Shown: positions 4,218-18,878 of the stretch, in pieces | Position numbering within the stretch: position 1 is the first letter of the stretch | Layout of the letters: every line of letters starts with the position of its first letter | Assembly: GCA_016204605.1 (NCBI GenBank) | Contig: JACQKK010000032.1 | Location: 1 to 64,000 of the forward strand | Direction: 5' to 3' | Length of the DNA: 64,000 nucleotides | Source of the DNA: Candidatus Lambdaproteobacteria bacterium | GTDB taxonomy: Bacteria; SAR324; JACQKK01 | Program-made: the position numbers and the translations under genes | The notes under the pieces: model-generated | Seen by the model: the letters and a program-made list of their open reading frames with translations, nothing else | Databases searched by the model: none | Told to the model about the DNA's origin: nothing

Positions 4218-4715
4218 ATGGCGAGCAAAGACAGCAAGCCGGCGGAATCGACCGATCCGCGAGGGAGCGAGCCGCCGATGGTGCAGTTCCAGAAACGCAT
4301 GGGGGAGCTGTTCGACGAGTTTTTCAGGGGGCGGGATTTCTCCGCCTGGCCCGTCTGGGGTCGGGAGCCGATGGCGCTCGGCTCCTTCAGCCCACGCATG
4401 GACGTCAGCGAGGATGACAAAGCCGTGACGGTGACGCTGGAGCTGCCGGGGCTGGAGGAAAAGGAGCTCGAGGTCGCCCTCACCGATGATGCCCTGACGA
4501 TCAAGGGCGAAAAGAAGGAGGAACGGGAACAGACGGGCAAGGATTTCATCCGCCGCGAGCGCTCCTACGGGAGCTTTACCCGCGTCGTCACGCTGGATGC
4601 GGCGATCGAGCATGCGGAGGTGAAGGCAGCCTTCAAGAACGGGGTATTGACGGTACGCTTGCCGATGAGCCGCGCGGCCCAGAAATCCGTGCGGCGCATT
4701 CCGATTCAGGGTTGA
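4218..4715 (+). CDS. Small heat-shock protein, Hsp20 family (first of pair)
   Basis: A 165-residue ATP-independent holdase chaperone. The alpha-crystallin domain spans roughly residues 58-160: it begins at PRMDVSEDDKAVTVTLELPG, includes LTIKGEKKEE and the RRERSYGSFTRVVTL block, and ends with KNGVLTVRLPMS, followed by the short IPIQ C-terminal motif (I-x-I type) used in oligomer assembly. The N-terminal arm is charged. A strong ribosome site AAGGAAGGAG lies just upstream of ATG 4218. It is followed after 101 bp by a second Hsp20 gene, and both probably respond to the sigma-54-type promoter upstream. Confidence 0.95.
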   Translation: MASKDSKPAESTDPRGSEPPMVQFQKRMGELFDEFFRGRDFSAWPVWGREPMALGSFSPRMDVSEDDKAVTVTLELPGLEEKELEVALTDDALTIKGEKKEEREQTGKDFIRRERSYGSFTRVVTLDAAIEHAEVKAAFKNGVLTVRLPMSRAAQKSVRRIPIQG

Positions 4716-4816
4716 GGCGGCCCTGACCGGCACGATCGGTCCGGCGCGCCTGTTCATCGAACGCAGGCATCCCGCAGCACTCACTTTCACCCACCGTTGG
4801 CGCGAGGAGCAATATC

Positions 4817-5314
4817 ATGAACCACAAGGAGCTGGGGAGCCCGCCGAACGGGGACAGGGGGGTACGCCCGGAATTCAACCACCCGATGTACCGCCTGGAG
4901 AAGGAGCTGTCGGAGGTGATGCAAGGCTTCTTCAGCCGTTGGGACGTGCCGTTGTTCGATACGGAGGAGAAGGTCGTGGAGGGGTTTCATCCCCGGATGG
5001 ACATTTCAGAGGATGTCACGGCGCTCTACGTCGCCGTGGAATTGCCGGGCTTGGCCGATGACGAGTTCGAGGTGTCCCTCGGCGACCAGACATTGACGAT
5101 CGCCGGCGAAAAGAAACGCCGCAGCGCCCCGGTCGAGCGCCAGCTCCACCGCCGGGAACGGGCGTTCGGCTCGTTCCGGCGGGTGATTCCGCTGCGGGAC
5201 GATGTGGAGCTCGAAGGCATCCGGGCCGCGTACGAGAACGGCCTGCTGGAGATCGTGTTGCCGCGTCGCCGCGGCGCTCCGAAACCCGCGCAGCACATTC
5301 CCGTCCGCCGCTGA
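4817..5314 (+). CDS. Small heat-shock protein, Hsp20 family (second of pair)
   Basis: A 165-residue Hsp20, clearly paralogous to the preceding gene and of equal length. The alpha-crystallin domain runs from ~residue 58 (PRMDISEDVTALYVAVELPG) through LTIAGEKKRR, RRERAFGSFRRVIPL and ENGLLEIVLPRR, ending with HIPVRR, an I-x-V type C-terminal motif. It has its own ribosome site (GAGGAG at about 4804). The N-terminal arms of the two proteins differ much more than the core domains, so they may form hetero-oligomers as IbpA/IbpB do (inference). A GC-rich stem-loop follows the stop. Confidence 0.95.
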   Translation: MNHKELGSPPNGDRGVRPEFNHPMYRLEKELSEVMQGFFSRWDVPLFDTEEKVVEGFHPRMDISEDVTALYVAVELPGLADDEFEVSLGDQTLTIAGEKKRRSAPVERQLHRRERAFGSFRRVIPLRDDVELEGIRAAYENGLLEIVLPRRRGAPKPAQHIPVRR

Positions 5315-6000: not shown

Positions 6001-7602
6001 ATGCTGAATACAAGTCGAAGGTCGCTGTGGGCCGGTTGTGCCCTGCTGGCGCTGTGGGTGGCGTTCCTGCCGCAGACCGGCCAGGCGCAGAAGTACGGCG
6101 GCGTGCTGCGCATGCTGCTCCGGGACCCGCCGCCGGATCTCTCTCTCCACGAGACGGCCACGACCGACACCGTGGTCGCGGCCTCGCCCCTCTATAACAA
6201 TCTGATCAAGTACGACTACTTCCAGCCGGTGGAAAGCCCCGCCACGCTCCGGCCGGATCTGGCCGAGAGCTGGCGCTGGAGCAGCGACGGCAGGGCGCTG
6301 ACCTTCAAGCTGCACCCGGGGGTGAAATGGCACGACGGCAAGCCGTTCGGCGCCCAGGACGTCAAGCACACCTGGGACGTGGTGCGGGGCGCCGTGCGGG
6401 GCGGACTCAAGCTCAACCCCCGCAAGACCTGGTACCAGAACGTCCAGGAGATCGAGACCAACGGCGACCGGGAGGTGACGTTCCGCCTCAAGCGCCCGCA
6501 GCCTTCGCTGCTGTCGATGTTCGCCTCCGGCAACTCGGCGGTCTATCCGGCCCATATCTCCCCTGCGGATTTGCGCGGCAAGCCGGTGGGCACGGGACCG
6601 TTCCGGCTGAAGACGTGGATCCGCGACCAGCGGATCACCCAGGAGCGGAACGCGGACTACTTCGTCAAGGGGCGTCCCTACCTGGACGGGGTGGACTTCA
6701 TCGTAATCCGGGGGGTTGCCTCGCAGACCGCGGCGATGATCGCGAATCAGGTGGACGCTGCGCCGCCGGTGTACACCGTCAAGCCCATCATGGAGCAGCT
6801 CAAGGCCGCCAACGTGGGGATCGTCTTCGCCGAACGCGTGACGAATGGCACGCAGAACATCATCGTCAACACCAAGAAGCCGCCCTTCAACAACCTGCGC
6901 CTGCGCCAGGCGGTGAACCTGGCCCTGGACCGCAACAGCCTGATCAAGACCGTATACAAGGGCGGGGCGGTGCGCGGGTCGGCCATGATCCCGCAACCCC
7001 ACGGACACTGGGGCCTGACGGACGAGCAGCTCGATAGCCTGCCCGGCTATGGGGACGCCCAGAAGAACAAGGCCGAGGCGCGCAGGATCCTGGCCGAAGA
7101 AGGCTACGGCCCGAACAATCCGCTCAGGATCGTCGTGTCCACCCGCTCCGTGCAGGCCTACATCGAATCGGCCAACTGGATGCTCGGGGAGATGAAGCAG
7201 GTCGGCATCGAGACCACACTCGAGCAGGTGGAGCTGGGAAACTGGTACGGCAAGGTGGCCCGCCGCGATTTCCTGATCGGCAGCAACCAGACGGCCGTGA
7301 CCATCGACGACCCCGACGCCCAGTTCTACGAGAACTTCACCTGCGGCTCCACGCGCAACTACTCCGACTACTGCAACCCGGAGATGGAGAAGAAGTACGC
7401 GGCACAGTCCATGGAAACCGACGACGCCAAGCGCGTCGAGATGGTGCACGAGATCGACATGCAGCTCCAGCGGGAGGTGGCGCGGCCTTACCTCGCGTAC
7501 CGCCTCAACTACTACGCCCACTATCCCTACGTGAAGAACTGGATCCCCCACGTCAGCTCGTACAACAGCTGGCGCTTCCAGGAGGTCTGGCTCGACAAGT
7601 AA
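6001..7602 (+). CDS. ABC transporter substrate-binding protein, family 5 (first paralog)
   Basis: A 533-residue periplasmic binding protein of the peptide/nickel/opine family (SBP_bac_5). The signal peptide (residues 1-30, hydrophobic core CALLALWVAFLP, ending AQA) is followed by KYGGVLRM. Family blocks include LRPDLAESWRWSSDGRALTF, HPGVKWHDGKPF with the D-V-K-x-T-W helix, GTGPFRLKTW, and FNNLRLRQAVNLALDR. ATG 6001 has AAGGA upstream; the frame is open further upstream but has no homology there. No permease follows directly. The only permease/ATPase set is at 24.9-29.2 kb beside a second, related binding protein, so both proteins may feed one transporter. Neighbouring genes (selenoprotein, ~355-aa family) suggest a dedicated substrate, identity unknown. 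Confidence 0.93.
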   Translation: MLNTSRRSLWAGCALLALWVAFLPQTGQAQKYGGVLRMLLRDPPPDLSLHETATTDTVVAASPLYNNLIKYDYFQPVESPATLRPDLAESWRWSSDGRALTFKLHPGVKWHDGKPFGAQDVKHTWDVVRGAVRGGLKLNPRKTWYQNVQEIETNGDREVTFRLKRPQPSLLSMFASGNSAVYPAHISPADLRGKPVGTGPFRLKTWIRDQRITQERNADYFVKGRPYLDGVDFIVIRGVASQTAAMIANQVDAAPPVYTVKPIMEQLKAANVGIVFAERVTNGTQNIIVNTKKPPFNNLRLRQAVNLALDRNSLIKTVYKGGAVRGSAMIPQPHGHWGLTDEQLDSLPGYGDAQKNKAEARRILAEEGYGPNNPLRIVVSTRSVQAYIESANWMLGEMKQVGIETTLEQVELGNWYGKVARRDFLIGSNQTAVTIDDPDAQFYENFTCGSTRNYSDYCNPEMEKKYAAQSMETDDAKRVEMVHEIDMQLQREVARPYLAYRLNYYAHYPYVKNWIPHVSSYNSWRFQEVWLDK

Positions 7603-7726: not shown

Positions 7727-8257
7727 ATGAGCGTGACGCTGCTGAGCCCCGTCGGGCTGAACAAGGTGGAGGCGCGCCCGATCACGCCCCGGCTGAAGAC
7801 GCTCGAGGGCATCCGGCTCGGGCTGCTCAACAACCGCAAGCCCAACTCCGATATTCTGCAGAACCGTATCGTCGAGCTGTTGCAAGCCAGGTACGGCCTG
7901 GCGGAGGTGGTGCGCAAGTTCAAGCCCGGCTCCTCCGTGGGCGCCGAAGGGCTCGATGTCTTCGCCCGGGAGGTGGGGGCGGTGATCACCGCCCTGGGCG
8001 ACTGAGGCTCGTGCACGTCGTGGTGTATCCACGACTCCTACGAGCTCGAGAAGCTGGGCATCCCCACGGTCACCGTGTGCACCGACGCCTTCGTGGGGCT
8101 GGCCAAGGAGGAATCGAAGAACCTCGGCATGCCCACCCTGCCCCTCGTCATCATTCCCCATCCCCTGGGGGGCGAGGCGAAGGACGTGGTGCACGAGCGC
8201 GCCCACTACGCCCTGGATCAGGTGATCCGGGCGCTCGTCCAGCATCCCGCGCAGTAG
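7727..8257 (+). CDS. UGSC-family selenoprotein (in-frame TGA = selenocysteine at codon 93)
   Basis: The frame runs 92 codons from ATG 7727 (ribosome site GGAAGGAG) to TGA 8003-8005, then continues in the same frame for 83 codons to TAG at 8255-8257. Reading TGA as selenocysteine gives a 176-residue protein with the signature U-G-S-C-T-S-W at residues 93-99, which defines the UGSC selenoprotein family. On both sides the translation is family-like: NRKPNSDILQNRIVELL before, and HDSYELEKLGIPTV and LPLVIIPHPLGG after. A stem-loop 11 nt after the TGA (8017-8035) has bacterial SECIS geometry. Function is unknown; the Sec and the nearby Cys suggest thiol/selenol redox or nucleophilic chemistry. It is followed after 39 bp by the ~355-aa partner gene. 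SelA/B/C/D are not in the window, so host Sec decoding is assumed. Confidence 0.88.
8017..8035 (+). promoter_or_regulatory. Bacterial SECIS-like stem-loop
   Basis: GTCGTGG (8017-8023) pairs perfectly with CCACGAC (8029-8035) around the 5-nt loop TGTAT, which carries a G at its second position. Exactly 11 nt separate the TGA (8003-8005) from the base of the stem, the spacing known for the minimal E. coli fdhF SECIS. The hairpin lies inside the coding sequence, as bacterial SECIS elements must, and would be bound by SelB. Confidence 0.8.
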
Positions 8258-8296: not shown

Positions 8297-9361
8297 ATGA
8301 TGGCGCTCGACGAACTGGTGGCCGAACGGCTCACGTTCGAGAATGACGACGACGCGCGGGAGGCCTTCCACGCGCGCCGCTGGAGCGATGGCCTGCCGTT
8401 CGTGTTCCCCACCGAGCAGCGCGTGCGCGCCATGATCGCCGGCGCCGGCCGGCCGGCCGCCGAGCCGATCGGCGTGGTGCCCCCGCGCTGGGCCGAGGCC
8501 ACCGTGGAGAACATCGCCATCAACGCGGTGATGGCCGGCTGCAAGCCCGAGTACATGCCGCTGCTGATCGCCACGCTCCAGGCCGCGTGCGACCCCGCCT
8601 TCGGGCTGTACAGCGTCCAGGCCACCACCCACCCCTGCGCCGTGACCATGGTCGTCTCCGGCCCGGTCGTCGCGAGGCTGGGGCTCAACTTCAGCCACGG
8701 CGCGTTCGGGCCGGGCTTCCGGGCCAACGCCACGCTCGGCCGGGCGGTGCGGCTGGTGCTGATCAACGTGGGCGGCGGGCTGCCGGGCGATGGCGACCAG
8801 TCCACCCAGGGCAACCCCGGCAAGTTCAGCTACTGCATCGCCGAGCACGAGGCGGCCACCCCCTGGGAGCCCTTCCGCGTGGCGCGCGGGTTCGGCAAGG
8901 GCGAGAGCACGGTGACGGTCTTCTCCGGCGAGGCCCCGCACAACATCAACGACCACGTCTGCACCTCCGCCTACTCGACGCTCTCGGTGGTGGCCGACGT
9001 GATGGGTCACATCGGCCACAACAACGCGGGCTCGATCGGCCGGGGCGACGTGCTGGTGGTGCTGGGGCCGGAGCACGCCCACACCATCGCCTCGGGCGGT
9101 CTCTCCCGGCGGGACGTGCAGTGGTTCCTGTTCGAGCACGCCCGCAACGCCCTGGCCAAGGTGCGCATCCGGGCGCAGTACCGGCAGGCGCAGTGGCCGC
9201 GTTGGTTGAACCCGGAGAACGCCGAGGCGCTGCTGCCCATCGTCGAAGCGCCCGAGGATATCCACGTGCTCGTCGCGGGCGGACCGGGCAAGCATTCCGC
9301 CTTCATCCCCACCTTCGGCAACTACCGCTCCGTGAGCCGGCGCGTCGAGGAGGTCGGCTGA
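8297..9361 (+). CDS. Conserved ~355-aa protein next to UGSC selenoprotein (copy 1), function unknown
   Basis: A 354-residue soluble protein with no signal peptide or membrane segment. I do not recognise a named family. It is clearly homologous along its whole length to the product of 17811-18878. Shared blocks are NWSDGLPF/RWSDGLPF, VIGVVPPRWAEAT-type, NAVMAGCK, YSVQATTHPC, GDGDQSTQG or GNGDQSTQG, ESTVTV, PHNI, VGHNNA-type, and GGPG-H-SFIPTFG-type near the C-terminus. Two Cys residues (in MAGCK and THPC) and several His/Asp are conserved between the copies and are candidate catalytic or metal sites. The ribosome site GGGAG is upstream. It follows the selenoprotein by 39 bp and precedes MmgE/PrpD, so it probably acts with the selenoprotein (inference). 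Confidence 0.85.
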   Translation: MMALDELVAERLTFENDDDAREAFHARRWSDGLPFVFPTEQRVRAMIAGAGRPAAEPIGVVPPRWAEATVENIAINAVMAGCKPEYMPLLIATLQAACDPAFGLYSVQATTHPCAVTMVVSGPVVARLGLNFSHGAFGPGFRANATLGRAVRLVLINVGGGLPGDGDQSTQGNPGKFSYCIAEHEAATPWEPFRVARGFGKGESTVTVFSGEAPHNINDHVCTSAYSTLSVVADVMGHIGHNNAGSIGRGDVLVVLGPEHAHTIASGGLSRRDVQWFLFEHARNALAKVRIRAQYRQAQWPRWLNPENAEALLPIVEAPEDIHVLVAGGPGKHSAFIPTFGNYRSVSRRVEEVG

Positions 9362-9449
9362 CCCGAGCCGGGCGCCGCCCCTTTGCGGCTGACTGCCCGT
9401 GCGAACGGGAGCGATCCGCCACCGCATCACCCGTTTCGAGGTGCACCCC

Positions 9450-10838
9450 ATGCGCGCAGAAGCCAGCCTCACCGAACAGACCAATCCCCGCGGCCGCCGG
9501 CTCGCCGGCTACGTGGCGGCCACCGCCCGGCGCCGGTTCCCGCCGGAGGTGATCGAGGCGGCCAAGCAGGCGCTGGTCGACTTCATGGGCGTGGCCATCG
9601 GGGCGTACCGCGACGGCCCGGCCGTCTCCGTGCGCCGCGCCGCCGAGGCCTGGCAGGCCCGCGGCAACGCGCAGATGTTGCTGGGCCCCAGGACGGCTCC
9701 CGCCCTGGCCGCGCTGGTGAACGGCACGATGGCCCACTGCATGGACTACGACGACACGCACCCGGGCGGCGCGGGTCACCCCTCCGGCGCCTGCTGGTCC
9801 ACGGCCCTGGCCATGGCCGGCCACCACGGCCTCTCCGAGCACGACGCCCTGGCGGGCTTCATCACCGGCTTCGAGGTGATGACGCGCCTCGGCGGCGGCT
9901 TCGCGCCGGGGGTGGGCCGCAGCCTGCAACGGCGCGGCTTCCATCCCACCTCGGTGTTCGGGCGGGCCGGCGCCGCCGCGGCCGCCTGCGCCATGCTGCG
10001 GCTCGACGAGGCGCAGGTGGCCAACGCGCTAGGCGTGGCCGCCACCACGGCCGGCGGGCTGCTGGGCTCCTTCGGCACCTACTCCAAGCCGTTCCACCCC
10101 GGCAAGGCGGCGATGGACGGCATCCTCGCCGCGCAGCTCGCCGCCGAGGGCTTCGAGGCCGCCACCCACCTGTTCGAGCTGGAGCGGGGGCTGCTCGACG
10201 CCTTCATCCAGGACCGCCAGGTCGAGGTGCCGCCGCTCGATTTCGATGCGCGGTGGGAGCTGCTCCAGAACGGCTTCAAGCCGTTCGCCTGCTGCCGGGC
10301 CACCCAGCCCTCGACCCAGGCCGCGCGCAGCCTGGCCGCGCAGGTCGGCGCGCAGAAGGTGCTGCGCGTCGAGGCGAAGGTGCACCCGAACGCGCTGGTC
10401 ACGGCCGGGAAGCTGGCGCCCAAGACCCCGCTGGAAGGCAAGTTCAGCGTGCCCTTCTGCATCGCCATCGGCCTGAGCGGCTACCGGGCCGTGGCGCCCG
10501 ACTTCTCCGCGGCGACCCTGCGCGACCCCAGGGTGATGGCGATCGTGCCCGTGGTGAAGCTCCAGCCGGTGGAGGGGCAGCCGGGCCACGAGGCACATCT
10601 CGACGTGTACCTGGCGGACGGCACCCACCTCCATGCGGACACCGCGATCGTGATCGGCCACCCCGACAACCCGATGGGCTGGGACGACCTGCACACGAAG
10701 TTCATGGGCCTCGTCGAACCGATCCTCGGCCCGGCCCAGGGCGAACGGCTCTACGAGACCCTGCGCCGCTTCGAGCGGCCGGGCACGCTGGGCGAGGCGA
10801 TGGCGCTCGTCTCCGCATCGGCCGCGCCTCGCACTTGA
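9450..10838 (+). CDS. MmgE/PrpD family protein
   Basis: A 462-residue member of the MmgE/PrpD family, which includes 2-methylcitrate dehydratase and other lyases/isomerases. Typical features are an all-alpha N-terminal domain with HCMDYDDTH (~residues 97-105) and HPSGACWSTALAMA, the TAGGLLGSFGTYSKPFHPGKAA block, the NGFKPFACCRATQP segment, and a C-terminal alpha/beta domain. The start ATG 9450 has GAGGTG upstream. Family members next to catabolic genes often dehydrate or isomerise carboxylic acids; the substrate here cannot be read from sequence. It lies 88 bp after the ~355-aa gene in the same direction, so it is probably in the same operon as the selenoprotein. A 7-bp stem-loop follows the stop. 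Confidence 0.92.
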   Translation: MRAEASLTEQTNPRGRRLAGYVAATARRRFPPEVIEAAKQALVDFMGVAIGAYRDGPAVSVRRAAEAWQARGNAQMLLGPRTAPALAALVNGTMAHCMDYDDTHPGGAGHPSGACWSTALAMAGHHGLSEHDALAGFITGFEVMTRLGGGFAPGVGRSLQRRGFHPTSVFGRAGAAAAACAMLRLDEAQVANALGVAATTAGGLLGSFGTYSKPFHPGKAAMDGILAAQLAAEGFEAATHLFELERGLLDAFIQDRQVEVPPLDFDARWELLQNGFKPFACCRATQPSTQAARSLAAQVGAQKVLRVEAKVHPNALVTAGKLAPKTPLEGKFSVPFCIAIGLSGYRAVAPDFSAATLRDPRVMAIVPVVKLQPVEGQPGHEAHLDVYLADGTHLHADTAIVIGHPDNPMGWDDLHTKFMGLVEPILGPAQGERLYETLRRFERPGTLGEAMALVSASAAPRT

Positions 10839-12043: not shown

Positions 12044-12589
12044 ATGCAACGGCAACCCTCACCGCCGCCGCAGACTGCGTACATATCGTTCTTGGCGGAA
12101 ATCAACGTGTCGACCGCCGAGCAGTTGCTCGGGGTCATATATCAGCAGGTTGCCAGAGGGGCACAGCGCATCTACTTGCTGTTCGCCACGCCGGGCGGCC
12201 TCATTGACCCCGGCATTGCGGTCTATAACCAGCTCAACGGCCTTAGCGTCGATCTGGTCATCCACAATGTCGGAAATGTGGACTCAGTTGGGAACGCAAT
12301 CTTCATGGCTGGAAAGACGCGTCTCGCGTGCAAACACTCGTCATTCCTTTTCCACGGAACGAAGTGGAACTTGCCGGGACCGACAGCACTCGCTCCGCGG
12401 GATGTAGATGAGATTCTGCAGAACCTAGGGGCTTTGGAACGGAAGATTGCCGGGCTCGTGAGCGAAAAGACCTCGCTGAAAATAGAGGAGGTCAATCGGT
12501 TCTTCGTCAGCTCTCAATCCGTAAATCCGAGCGAGGCCCTTGAGCGGGGCATCATTCACCGGATTGAGGACGTGAGCTTGCCGCCGTGA
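12044..12589 (+). CDS. ClpP/SppA-like serine peptidase, stand-alone
   Basis: A 181-residue member of the ClpP/crotonase-fold peptidases. FATPGGLIDPGIAVYNQL matches the ClpP N-SxGG region, GNVDSVGNAIFMAG places the nucleophile at Ser81 (as in ClpP GxxASMG), SSFLFHG places a His near 104, and NPSEALERGIIHRI matches the C-terminal ClpP block. It lacks ClpP's usual termini and no Clp ATPase is adjacent, so it may act without a chaperone or serve a mobile function. The region (about 11.95-12.78 kb) is visibly lower in GC and richer in A/T-ending codons than its surroundings, suggesting recent acquisition. The ribosome site CGGAGG lies just upstream of ATG 12044. Confidence 0.8.
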   Translation: MQRQPSPPPQTAYISFLAEINVSTAEQLLGVIYQQVARGAQRIYLLFATPGGLIDPGIAVYNQLNGLSVDLVIHNVGNVDSVGNAIFMAGKTRLACKHSSFLFHGTKWNLPGPTALAPRDVDEILQNLGALERKIAGLVSEKTSLKIEEVNRFFVSSQSVNPSEALERGIIHRIEDVSLPP

Positions 12590-12828
12590 TCTGTTCCGAT
12601 CCAGTTGGTATTCCCAAGATAGGCAGACAATGTGCCCCGAGAGCATGGCCTGTTCCTGTTCCAAGGTTAAGGCTTCTTGGCCGCCAGGATTCCCACTTCC
12701 AGCAGATCAACCCTAGTATCACAATTCTCCGGAAGAACGCAAAGGCCCAGTCACCACCCTCAATGCGGCTGTCAGATCAGATTGGGACACCACCCGCTGC
12801 CGCCGGGGCTCGCCCGCCTAGGAACGCC

Positions 12829-15066
12829 ATGCCACCGCCCCGCACGTGGGACGCCCCCGCCTTGCCCCGGCCGCTGGAGGGAGTGCTGGTGATCGAGCGC
12901 GCCGGACGGCTCGCCGGCGGCGTCTGCGCCATGCTGCTGCTCCAGTTCGGGGCGCGGGTGATCCGGGTCGAAGACCCGGCCGAGCCGCTCCCGCTCGCCC
13001 TCGCGGGGGAGGCGGCCGGCGCCCTGCACGCGTTTCTGGAGGCCGGGCGGGAGCGGGTGGCCTACGACCCCGCCACGTTCGCCCGGCTGCTCGACCACGC
13101 GCAGGTGGCCATCTGTGCGCCGCCTGCCCCCGGTGCGAACCCCGATCTGGAGGCGATCCGCGCCCGCCGGGATCGGCTGGTGGGCTGCGTCCTGACGCCC
13201 TACGGCCTGGCCGGCGGCGCGCCCGGGATGCCGCCCGCCGGCGACGAGCTCGCGCTCCAGGCGGCGAGCGGCCTCGCCGCCCTCACGGGGGAGGAGGGCG
13301 GGCTGCCCCTGCCGGCGGGCGTGCCGCTGGCCGAAATGCTGGCCGGGGTCAACGGGGCCACCGCCGTGCTGGCGGCGCTGCGGCTGCTGGAACGGGGCGC
13401 AGGGGGCCAACTGGCCGATATCGCGCTGTTCGATGGGCTGATCGGGCTGATGGGCACGCACATGACGCTGATCGTGGCCGGTCAGCGCGGCGGCTTCCGC
13501 AAAGGGTGCCGCAACCCGGTGACCGCCCCCTGGAACGTCTACCCCACCGCCGACGCGCGGATCGTCGTCTGCACCTCCACCGACGACCACTGGCACCGCA
13601 TCCTGAAGGTGGCGGGCCGGGCCGAGCTGATCGGCGACCCCCGCTTCGCCTCGCCGGGTCAGCGGGTCGCGCACGTGGAGGAGGTCGATCGCATCGTCGC
13701 GGCGTGGAGCGGCCCGCTCGGCACCCGCTCGGCGATCGCCCGGCTCACCGAGGCGGGCGTGCCCGTGGGCGCCGTCCGCACGATCCCCGAGCTGATGGCG
13801 GACGAGGGCTTCCGCGCCCGCGGCATGGTGCGCGCGGTGACGGACGGCCGGGGGCGGGAGATCACGCTCGCCGGCCCGGTGTTCCACTTCTCCCGGGCTA
13901 AGGCCCTGCACCCGGCGCGCGTCGAGCCCGTGCGCCCCGCCGGGTCGCTCGCGCTGCCCGCGCGGCCGGGGGATCGGGCCCTCCGCGCCCCGGGCGAAGC
14001 GCCAAGCGCATCGCCGCTGGCGGGGGTGAACGTCGTCGAGATCGCGCAGTTCACGGCCGGGCCCGTGGCGGCCCGGAACCTCGCGCACCTGGGCGCCTCC
14101 GTGGTCAAGGTCGAGGGGATCGAGGGCGAGCCGACCCGGCGCTGGAGCCCCGCCTTCGCCGGGATCGGCCACTACTTCGCCAACGGCAACTGCGACAAGC
14201 GCAGCCTGGCCGTGGACCTCAAGCAGGCCCGGGGGCGCGAGGTCGTCGCGCGCCTGTGCGCCCGGGCCGACGTGCTGGTGGAGAACCAGCGGCCGGGCGC
14301 GCTCGCTCGCCTGGGGCTCGGGTACGCGGAGCTGAGCCGCGCGAACCCGCGCCTGATCTACCTCGCGGTGTCGGGGTACGGCGTGACCGGCCCCGGCGCC
14401 GCCCGGGCCGCCTTCGATACCGTGATCCAGGCCGAAGCCGGCCTGATGAGCCTGCTCCGCTCGCGCGTGCCGGTGCGGATCGGGGTCGCCATCGCCGACA
14501 TGATGGGCGCGCAGCTCGCGCCGCTGGCCATCCTCGCGGCGCTGCGGCACAGGGAGATCGATGGGCTGGGCCAGCACGTGGACCTCTCGATGCAGGACTG
14601 CGCGGCCTGGCTGGGGCAGTTCTCCTGGCCCGGCGGAGCCGCCGCGCTCCCGCCCTGGCACACGGTGGAGGCGGCCGACGGCTTCCTGATCGCGGCCGCC
14701 GCGCCGGCGCGCGTCGATGCGGCCCTGGGCGGCGCCTCGACTCAAGCGCGGAGCTGCGACGAGATCGCGGGTTGCCTGCGCGCCGCCGGCATCGTCGCCG
14801 AGCCCGTGCGGGAGCTGGACGCGGTGCTGGACGGGGAGCAGGTGCGCCGGCGGGGGCTGCTGCCCGCGCTGCCCGACAGCCAGGGCACCCCCGTGGCGGT
14901 GCTGGACGCCCCCTATCGGCTCGAACGCACGCCGGCGCGGGTGGGCCGGCTGATCGGCGAGACGGGCGCCGACACCGGGGATATCCTCGGCGAGCTGGGT
15001 TACACGGCGCAGGAGCGGGATGCCTTGCGCGCGGCAGGCGTCGTGCGATCAGGCGGCGTGCGATAG
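12829..15066 (+). CDS. Double-domain CaiB/BaiF (family III) CoA-transferase
   Basis: A 745-residue fusion of two family III CoA-transferase modules. The first, residues ~18-385, starts at LEGVLVIERAGRLAGG; the second, ~400-745, starts at LAGVNVVEIAQFTAGPVAARNLAHLG. The second half has the usual catalytic block, GYGVTGP followed by AAFDTVIQAEAGL with the expected Asp. In the first half the matching position reads GDELALQAASGL, so the Asp is shifted or replaced and that half may be structural. These enzymes move CoA between carboxylic acids. ATG 12829 is chosen because homology starts just after it; the frame is open to 12586 through a low-GC stretch that looks non-coding. Partners are probably the neighbouring catabolic enzymes. 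Confidence 0.88.
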   Translation: MPPPRTWDAPALPRPLEGVLVIERAGRLAGGVCAMLLLQFGARVIRVEDPAEPLPLALAGEAAGALHAFLEAGRERVAYDPATFARLLDHAQVAICAPPAPGANPDLEAIRARRDRLVGCVLTPYGLAGGAPGMPPAGDELALQAASGLAALTGEEGGLPLPAGVPLAEMLAGVNGATAVLAALRLLERGAGGQLADIALFDGLIGLMGTHMTLIVAGQRGGFRKGCRNPVTAPWNVYPTADARIVVCTSTDDHWHRILKVAGRAELIGDPRFASPGQRVAHVEEVDRIVAAWSGPLGTRSAIARLTEAGVPVGAVRTIPELMADEGFRARGMVRAVTDGRGREITLAGPVFHFSRAKALHPARVEPVRPAGSLALPARPGDRALRAPGEAPSASPLAGVNVVEIAQFTAGPVAARNLAHLGASVVKVEGIEGEPTRRWSPAFAGIGHYFANGNCDKRSLAVDLKQARGREVVARLCARADVLVENQRPGALARLGLGYAELSRANPRLIYLAVSGYGVTGPGAARAAFDTVIQAEAGLMSLLRSRVPVRIGVAIADMMGAQLAPLAILAALRHREIDGLGQHVDLSMQDCAAWLGQFSWPGGAAALPPWHTVEAADGFLIAAAAPARVDAALGGASTQARSCDEIAGCLRAAGIVAEPVRELDAVLDGEQVRRRGLLPALPDSQGTPVAVLDAPYRLERTPARVGRLIGETGADTGDILGELGYTAQERDALRAAGVVRSGGVR

Positions 15067-17810: not shown

Positions 17811-18878
17811 ATGCCGATGGAACACCTGACCGCCGAGCGCCTGACCTTCCGCAGCGAGGAGGAGGTGTTGGAGGCGTATCACACGCGCAACTGGAGCGAT
17901 GGCCTCCCCTTCATCCTCCCCACCGAGGCGCGGGTCGCGGCCATGCTCGCCGGCGCGGGGCGGCCGGGGCCGGAGGTGATCGGCGTCGTGCCGCCGCGCT
18001 GGGCCGAGGCCACCACGGAGCTGATCGCCGTCAATGCCGTGATGGCGGGCTGCAAGGCCGAGCAGATGCCGGTGCTGATCGCCGCCATCGAGGCCGCCTG
18101 CGACCCGGCCTTCTGCCTGTACAGCGTGCAGGCCACCACCCACCCCTGCGGGCTGCTGATGGTGGTCAGCGGCGCGGTCGCGACGCGCATCGGGATGAAC
18201 GCCGGCCACGGCGTGTTCGGGCCGCACCGGGTCAATTCGCCGCTGGGCCGCGCGCTGCGGCTGGTGCTGCTCAACATCGGCGGGGCCATCCCCGGCAACG
18301 GCGACCAATCCACCCAGGGCTCGCCGGGCAAGCACGCCTACTGCATCGCCGAGAACGAGGCGGGCACGCCCTGGGAGTCGTTCCGCGCGACCAAGGGCTT
18401 CACGCGCGAGGAGAGCACCGTCACCGTCTACGCGGCGGAGAGCCCCCACAACATCCACAACCAGGTGGTGCGCTCGCCGGGCAGCCTGCTGGCCTCGATC
18501 GCCAGCGTGATGGCGACCGTGGGCCACAACAACGCGCTGGCCGTGAAGCACGGCGACCTGCTGGTGGCGCTCTGCCCGGAGCACGCCCTGTTCCTGGCGC
18601 GGGCGGGCCTGACCCTGCGCGATGCGCAGGAGTATCTCTGGGATCACGCCCGCAGCCCCCTTCGCGCGGTGAAGCACACGTCGTCCCCCAACCGCTTCGC
18701 CAACTATCCCGGGTGGGTGGACCTGGACGACGACGACGCGCTGGTGCCCATCGCCGCGACCCCGGCCGACATCAACATCGTCGTCACCGGGGGGCCGGGG
18801 CTGCACTCGTCGTTCATCCCCACGTTCGGCTTCACCCGCTCCGTGACGCGCCGGATCGAAATCCCCACCGGCTGGTGA
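17811..18878 (+). CDS. Conserved ~355-aa protein (copy 2), function unknown
   Basis: A 355-residue paralog of the protein encoded at 8297-9361, similar from end to end: TAERLTF, TRNWSDGLPFILPTE, GVVPPRWAEATTE, NAVMAGCKAEQMP, YSVQATTHPCGLLMVVSG, GNGDQSTQGSPGKHAYC, ESTVTVYAAESPHNIHNQV, VTGGPGLHSSFIPTFG. It has no signal peptide or membrane segment. Unlike copy 1 it has no UGSC gene next to it; instead it is flanked by an M20 amidohydrolase and an LLM oxidoreductase. Two diverged copies within 10 kb suggest either related substrates or a heteromeric complex (inference). Start ATG 17811 leaves an N-terminus equal in length to copy 1. Confidence 0.85.
   Translation: MPMEHLTAERLTFRSEEEVLEAYHTRNWSDGLPFILPTEARVAAMLAGAGRPGPEVIGVVPPRWAEATTELIAVNAVMAGCKAEQMPVLIAAIEAACDPAFCLYSVQATTHPCGLLMVVSGAVATRIGMNAGHGVFGPHRVNSPLGRALRLVLLNIGGAIPGNGDQSTQGSPGKHAYCIAENEAGTPWESFRATKGFTREESTVTVYAAESPHNIHNQVVRSPGSLLASIASVMATVGHNNALAVKHGDLLVALCPEHALFLARAGLTLRDAQEYLWDHARSPLRAVKHTSSPNRFANYPGWVDLDDDDALVPIAATPADINIVVTGGPGLHSSFIPTFGFTRSVTRRIEIPTGW

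Follow-up and report, generated by a model that had tools for sequence, protein, structure and literature searches.

The UGSC gene and its surroundings

The window, i.e., the whole 64,000-nucleotide stretch of DNA that was analysed, carries a UGSC-family selenoprotein gene flanked on the same strand by a solute-binding protein gene, by a gene of an unnamed family and by an MmgE/PrpD-family gene (Table 1). The UGSC gene is preceded closely by AAGGAG, a ribosome-binding-like sequence, and ends at a TAG at 8255–8257. Its frame is interrupted solely by TGA 8003–8005, which is codon 93, and the signature U-G-S-C-T-S-W occupies residues 93–99 in the context GDUGSCTSWCIHD. The sequence-only reading had described this single frame, TGA and signature correctly, and was also right that ordinary gene calling splits the gene: ORF calling returned a 92-aa ORF and a second ORF in another frame. 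The full-length product scored above the cut-offs of both Pfam PF24696 (UGSC; 164.3 bits against 25, E-value 3.7e-48, residues 5–171) and NCBIfam NF041046 (UGSC_fam; 137.6 against 125), and shares with that family the U-G-S-C motif, an instance of the pattern U/C-G-[SAG]-C, as well as the length and the position of Sec. The UGSC family has been known since about 2008 (PMC2398784; see also the review PMC13188914), and by its sequence the product, taken singly, is an ordinary member. The host genome holds seven UGSC genes, six of them with the TGA.

Table 1. Features at and around the UGSC gene, in positions of the window
Feature	Position	Strand	Remarks
SBP_bac_5 solute-binding protein gene	6007..7602	+	directly upstream of the UGSC gene
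UGSC-family selenoprotein gene	7727..8257	+	176 aa; Sec at residue 93 via TGA readthrough
SECIS-like element	8006..8048	+	core stem 8017-8023/8029-8035; loop 8024-8028 UGUAU, G at loop position 2
Partner gene, unnamed family	8297..9361	+	354 aa; next gene after UGSC; in various phyla the family adjoins UGSC or is fused to it
MmgE/PrpD-family gene	9399..10838	+	directly downstream of the partner gene
Second partner-family copy	17811..18878	+	60% identical; no UGSC beside it

Further out in the window, two tandem Hsp20 genes (4218–5314) lie a short way ahead of the solute-binding protein gene, and an 826-aa reading frame (12586–15066) contains at least two CaiB-type CoA-transferase (family III) stretches.

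Selenocysteine insertion at codon 93

Bacterial SECIS elements are hairpins that lie just after the UGA, with the loop 16–37 nt away and a G at its first or second position. Applying this description by hand, we found the loop separated from the UGA triplet by 18 nt, and the perfect 7-bp stem with a 5-nt loop begins exactly 11 nt after the TGA, where the sequence-only reading had placed it. The folding energy of the region is –24.8 kcal/mol, with z = –3.46 relative to dinucleotide shuffles and z = –1.84 relative to synonymous-codon draws. In this GC-rich window, a perfect 7-bp hairpin starting 5–30 nt downstream is expected at 3.2% of positions, and one at exactly +11 at 0.19%; an Rfam search of the whole window gave no match. 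Since about 3% of window positions are expected to have such a hairpin, the single hairpin on its own is suggestive, and it is the comparative evidence that makes the case convincing.

We compared the locus with 112 full-length relatives, a set in which a few loci had been fetched twice, and used 95 distinct Sec sequences for the analysis of the stem. In the alignment with Sec- and Cys-containing members, which the sequence-only reading had suggested, 104 of the 112 have U in the Sec column and 6 have Cys, the remaining two being one Gly and one Met. Among the distinct Sec sequences the stem occurs in variants such as TCGTGG..CCACGA, TCGGGC..GCTCGA and TCATGC..GCATGA, and 88% of the 7-bp stem is paired in register, compared to 23–56% when the 3' arm is slid by 1–6 nt. 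The purely synonymous pair, which joins the third positions of codons +6 and +8 downstream of the TGA, is formed in 94% of sequences, against 54% on shuffling (maximum 68%). Codon usage at these positions covaries: Trp TGG goes mostly with a C-ending codon (GTC, ATC, CTC), and Cys TGC and Gly GGC go mostly with a G-ending codon (GTG, TTG, ATG). As judged from these aligned sequences, the hairpins of the relatives change in a compensatory way, synonymous third positions included. Excess stability relative to synonymous-codon draws is confined to the region just after the TGA in the Sec forms (mean z –0.99; –0.34 to +0.05 elsewhere), the value for the eight non-Sec forms being –0.11. Nine Sec sequences form fewer than 5 of the 7 stem pairs, several of these having an alternative stem, e.g., GCCCGC..GCGGGC.

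The machinery for Sec insertion was searched for in the host genome, a 3.84 Mb draft in 212 contigs that is 80% complete. Of the four genes that the sequence-only reading had proposed to look for, selB, selD and tRNA-Sec (selC) are present, the last confirmed by ARAGORN; selA was found only as a 55-residue C-terminal fragment (model positions 400–454) at the edge of contig C108. Because selA scores above cut-off in 43 of the 52 phylum genomes, the host selA is most simply read as a gene broken by the assembly. Among the relatives, selA was above cut-off in none of five genomes with a Cys form and in six of eight with a Sec form, these being drafts in which absences are soft. The sixth Cys-form locus (L079) carries a Sec form as well, and no selA was seen in its genome.

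Two other readings of the TGA were weighed. Reassignment of TGA to Trp was rejected, given the presence of tRNA-Sec and selB and the fact that other genes of the host, such as the UGSC genes on contigs C5 and C182, end in TGA. That TGA 8003 is an ordinary stop, whether it ends a 92-aa protein, marks a pseudogene or stems from an error in sequencing, would agree with standard ORF calling, which ends there, and with the lack of an intact selA in the host draft; it is contradicted by the same TGA in about 105 relatives from many phyla with the protein conserved on both sides, by the covarying hairpin, by the selB, selD and tRNA-Sec of the host and by the TGA in five more UGSC genes of the host, and we find it scarcely credible. 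Family scores above cut-off, the comparative hairpin and the Sec genes of the host thus support the proposal of a UGSC-family selenoprotein with a downstream SECIS element, and insertion of Sec at codon 93 is virtually certain.

Two related observations were made. The selD gene of the host (C180:16316–17239) itself has an in-frame TGA, as is common in many Sec-using bacteria. In the archaeon Natrialba asiatica, a Cys-form gene (L050, 4384–4893) carries all 7 pairs of a bacterial-type SECIS-like stem after its TGC. The stem may have been left behind by transfer of the gene from a bacterium that uses Sec, although constraint on the amino acids could account for some of the pairing.

An unnamed protein family paired with UGSC

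The gene downstream of UGSC, passed over in the sequence-only reading, is the more informative part of the locus. Its product has no sequence relative in Pfam, NCBIfam or the PDB. Across 125 partner sequences, Pfam and NCBIfam gave only sporadic weak matches, with no match to the Gly_reductase family, and sequence searches of solved structures with UGSC and the partner, singly and as profiles, returned nothing credible. The partner also lies outside the coverage of the two UGSC family models. The family is widespread: a scan of the collection gave at least 572 confirmed relatives, from at least 585 pattern matches, and the best 80 of these at least 572 come mainly from Betaproteobacteria, Chloroflexota (SAR202/Dehalococcoidia), Rokubacteria, Myxococcota, Nitrospinota, Entotheonella and Acidimicrobiia, with one haloarchaeon, Natrialba, among them; Natrialba asiatica has both UGSC and the partner.

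For 107 of the 112 full-length UGSC genes, the partner is encoded no more than 1.5 kb away in the same orientation, a rate that is biased by the loci from named genomes having been found via the partner; within this set it stands beside 23 of the 26 UGSC genes found by a UGSC-only search. Conversely, 81 of 90 partner copies in the best-80 loci have a UGSC gene at up to the same distance, again in the same orientation. To avoid circularity, we surveyed 52 genomes of the host phylum by searching for each protein separately, so that this count is free of the bias. UGSC was found in 20 of the 52 and the partner in 18, all 18 within the 20; the 32 genomes lacking UGSC had no partner, and the two with UGSC only have fragmentary UGSC matches. 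Were the genomes independent of one another, which is not the case, this nesting would have a chance of about 4e-12.

The two proteins are joined in one chain at 25 loci or more, with at most the one Sec TGA and with UGSC in every case ahead of the partner. A quick tree needs about 16 changes between fusion and separation to account for the fused state, of which at least 6 are forced by well-supported branches. The host genome has two such fusions, one with Sec (C81) and one with neither Sec nor Cys (C30). In the latter (L044, 8169–8684), GEGGNPT replaces GDUGSCT, and the protein is possibly a pseudoenzyme or one with changed chemistry.

These results make it very likely that UGSC and the partner are functionally paired. 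The host genome has 17 partner copies against its seven UGSC genes; besides the second copy in the window, six more partner copies stand without a nearby UGSC (two on C56 and one each on C73, C98, C121 and C150, the last cut by the contig end). In the open-licence literature we found no account of the gene pairing. A 2008 report on ocean metagenomes (PMC2398784) does describe fusion of UGSC to a conserved but uncharacterised domain, Unknown_1, said there to be limited to a few aquatic organisms. Unknown_1 may be the same family, being likewise an uncharacterised conserved domain joined to UGSC, whereas the partner found here spans many phyla and is mostly a separate adjacent gene.

Relation to glycine reductase

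Residues 78–159 of the UGSC protein match the C-terminal part of GrdB, selenoprotein B of glycine/sarcosine/betaine/D-proline reductase (TIGR01917, 2.8e-7), a match found in 18 of 107 UGSC members. Aligned with a full-length genuine GrdB from a relative (L160), the segment GDUGSCTSWCIHDSYELEKLGIP is set against VATUGTCNRCGATIAKEIERVGIP with Sec on Sec, which is weak alone. Both proteins have U-G-x-C at a helix start followed by an E-x-x-G-I-P strand. They differ in that only the C-terminal part of GrdB (PF07355, TIGR01917/TIGR01918) is common to UGSC, in the lack of GrdA from the host and in the partner having no Gly_reductase match. We rejected UGSC as a member of the GrdB family: its scores of 29.8 bits (TIGR01917) and 23.2 bits (TIGR01918) are below the cut-offs of 602.2 and 65.45, and GrdA was absent from the host genome. 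GrdA was also absent from 50 of 51 searched relatives of the phylum, these being drafts in which single absences are soft. Because GrdA is nearly absent, a hand-over of the glycine reductase type is unlikely in this phylum; at most, UGSC resembles GrdB in its mode of action, and here it does not belong to glycine reductase.

The host genome contains two more GrdB-like genes that have an in-frame TGA (C164:16331–16741 and C119:28379–28927). Across the phylum, 45 of the 52 genomes show GrdB-like matches, most of them with TGA, despite the near-absence of GrdA.

Predicted structures and a proposed two-part enzyme

The predicted UGSC model (pLDDT 94.3) alternates strand and helix in five units and places Sec93 directly ahead of its third long helix, and its best PDB matches, at TM of about 0.4–0.5, include lumazine synthase, WrbA and a flavodiiron protein. 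A thioredoxin-like fold was presumed in 2008 (PMC2398784); the predicted beta-alpha x5 domain gives it no support, the modelled fold being flavodoxin-like. The partner model is equally confident (pLDDT 94.8), and a comparison of its fold with the PDB and viral models gave no credible match, the best PDB hit being a class-I fumarase (E 7e-3, TM 0.27, rmsd 16 A). Near-invariant residues of the partner are D31, G32, N76, A80-G81-C82, R149, E183, W190 and G328, and C180 is kept in 87%; by their conservation C82, C180, R149, E183 and W190 look catalytic.

UGSC and the unnamed partner are probably the halves of one uncharacterised selenium enzyme. Our main reading, to which we give a probability of roughly 55%, is a two-part selenoenzyme in which the Sec-containing UGSC protein and the 354-aa partner act on an imported substrate, probably by nucleophilic attack of Sec. 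The partner would bind an imported small molecule and activate it for attack by the UGSC Sec, which sits at a helix start in an alpha/beta domain; this role of Sec as the nucleophile is inferred from the homology between the Sec motif and the C-terminal portion of GrdB. A carbon-heteroatom bond of the substrate would be cleaved, and the enzyme might be reset by the neighbouring Cys of U-G-S-C (C96) or by the conserved partner cysteines. One UGSC subunit could possibly be common to several partners in the host. As a specific chemistry this scheme is tentative, and by our analysis falls somewhat short of even odds.

The U-x-x-C motif in about 94% of UGSC members speaks for a second reading, that UGSC is a general thiol/selenol oxidoreductase, as was put forward in 2008 from the presumed fold, and the partner its dedicated substrate or electron acceptor, with no cleavage of a carbon-heteroatom bond. 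The two near-invariant cysteines of the partner, C82 and C180, and the thioredoxin-like fold suggested in print (PMC2398784) would fit it. However, the high-confidence UGSC model is flavodoxin-like, the second Cys is replaced by Ser in some members (6 of 107), and the neighbourhoods are variously catabolic with solute importers, and we consider the oxidoreductase reading rather unlikely. Because of these Ser replacements and of two fusions whose catalytic site contains neither Sec nor Cys, not every UGSC copy can share the same chemistry.

Gene neighbourhoods and implications

The catabolic operon of the sequence-only reading is plausible from the solute-binding protein gene upstream and the MmgE/PrpD gene downstream; the single operon is read from gene order. 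An SBP_bac_5 gene is likewise placed at three other partner copies of the host genome (C5, C98 and C121). Elsewhere, the commonest immediate neighbour is TctC, a tripartite transporter receptor, with 20 of 130 neighbour proteins from unrelated phyla; amidohydrolases, CoA-transferases, short-chain dehydrogenases and further enzymes of catabolism come next. The neighbours vary widely and do not converge on one pathway. This would also be expected if the pair were a detoxification or selenium/sulfur-handling device, not a catabolic one, and its solute-binding neighbours coincidental; yet solute-binding genes recur beside the unit in unrelated phyla, as TctC and, in the host, as SBP_bac_5, and we regard such a device as improbable. 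For the two-part selenoenzyme, the neighbourhoods suggest one step that is reused for various compounds after import, with the neighbouring solute-binding proteins hinting at candidate substrates.

For annotators, the locus is a warning that routine annotation cuts UGSC selenoprotein genes in two. The near-constant and repeatedly fused partner turns an unknown selenoprotein into a defined two-protein target, and flags a widespread protein family that has had no name. It is conceivable, though on balance doubtful, that the pair represents an undescribed class of modular, two-component, Sec-dependent enzymes that cleave carbon-heteroatom bonds, with a partner fold not found among solved structures. 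If so, one Sec subunit would serve several substrate-specific partners, as the seven UGSC genes and 17 partners of the host may indicate.
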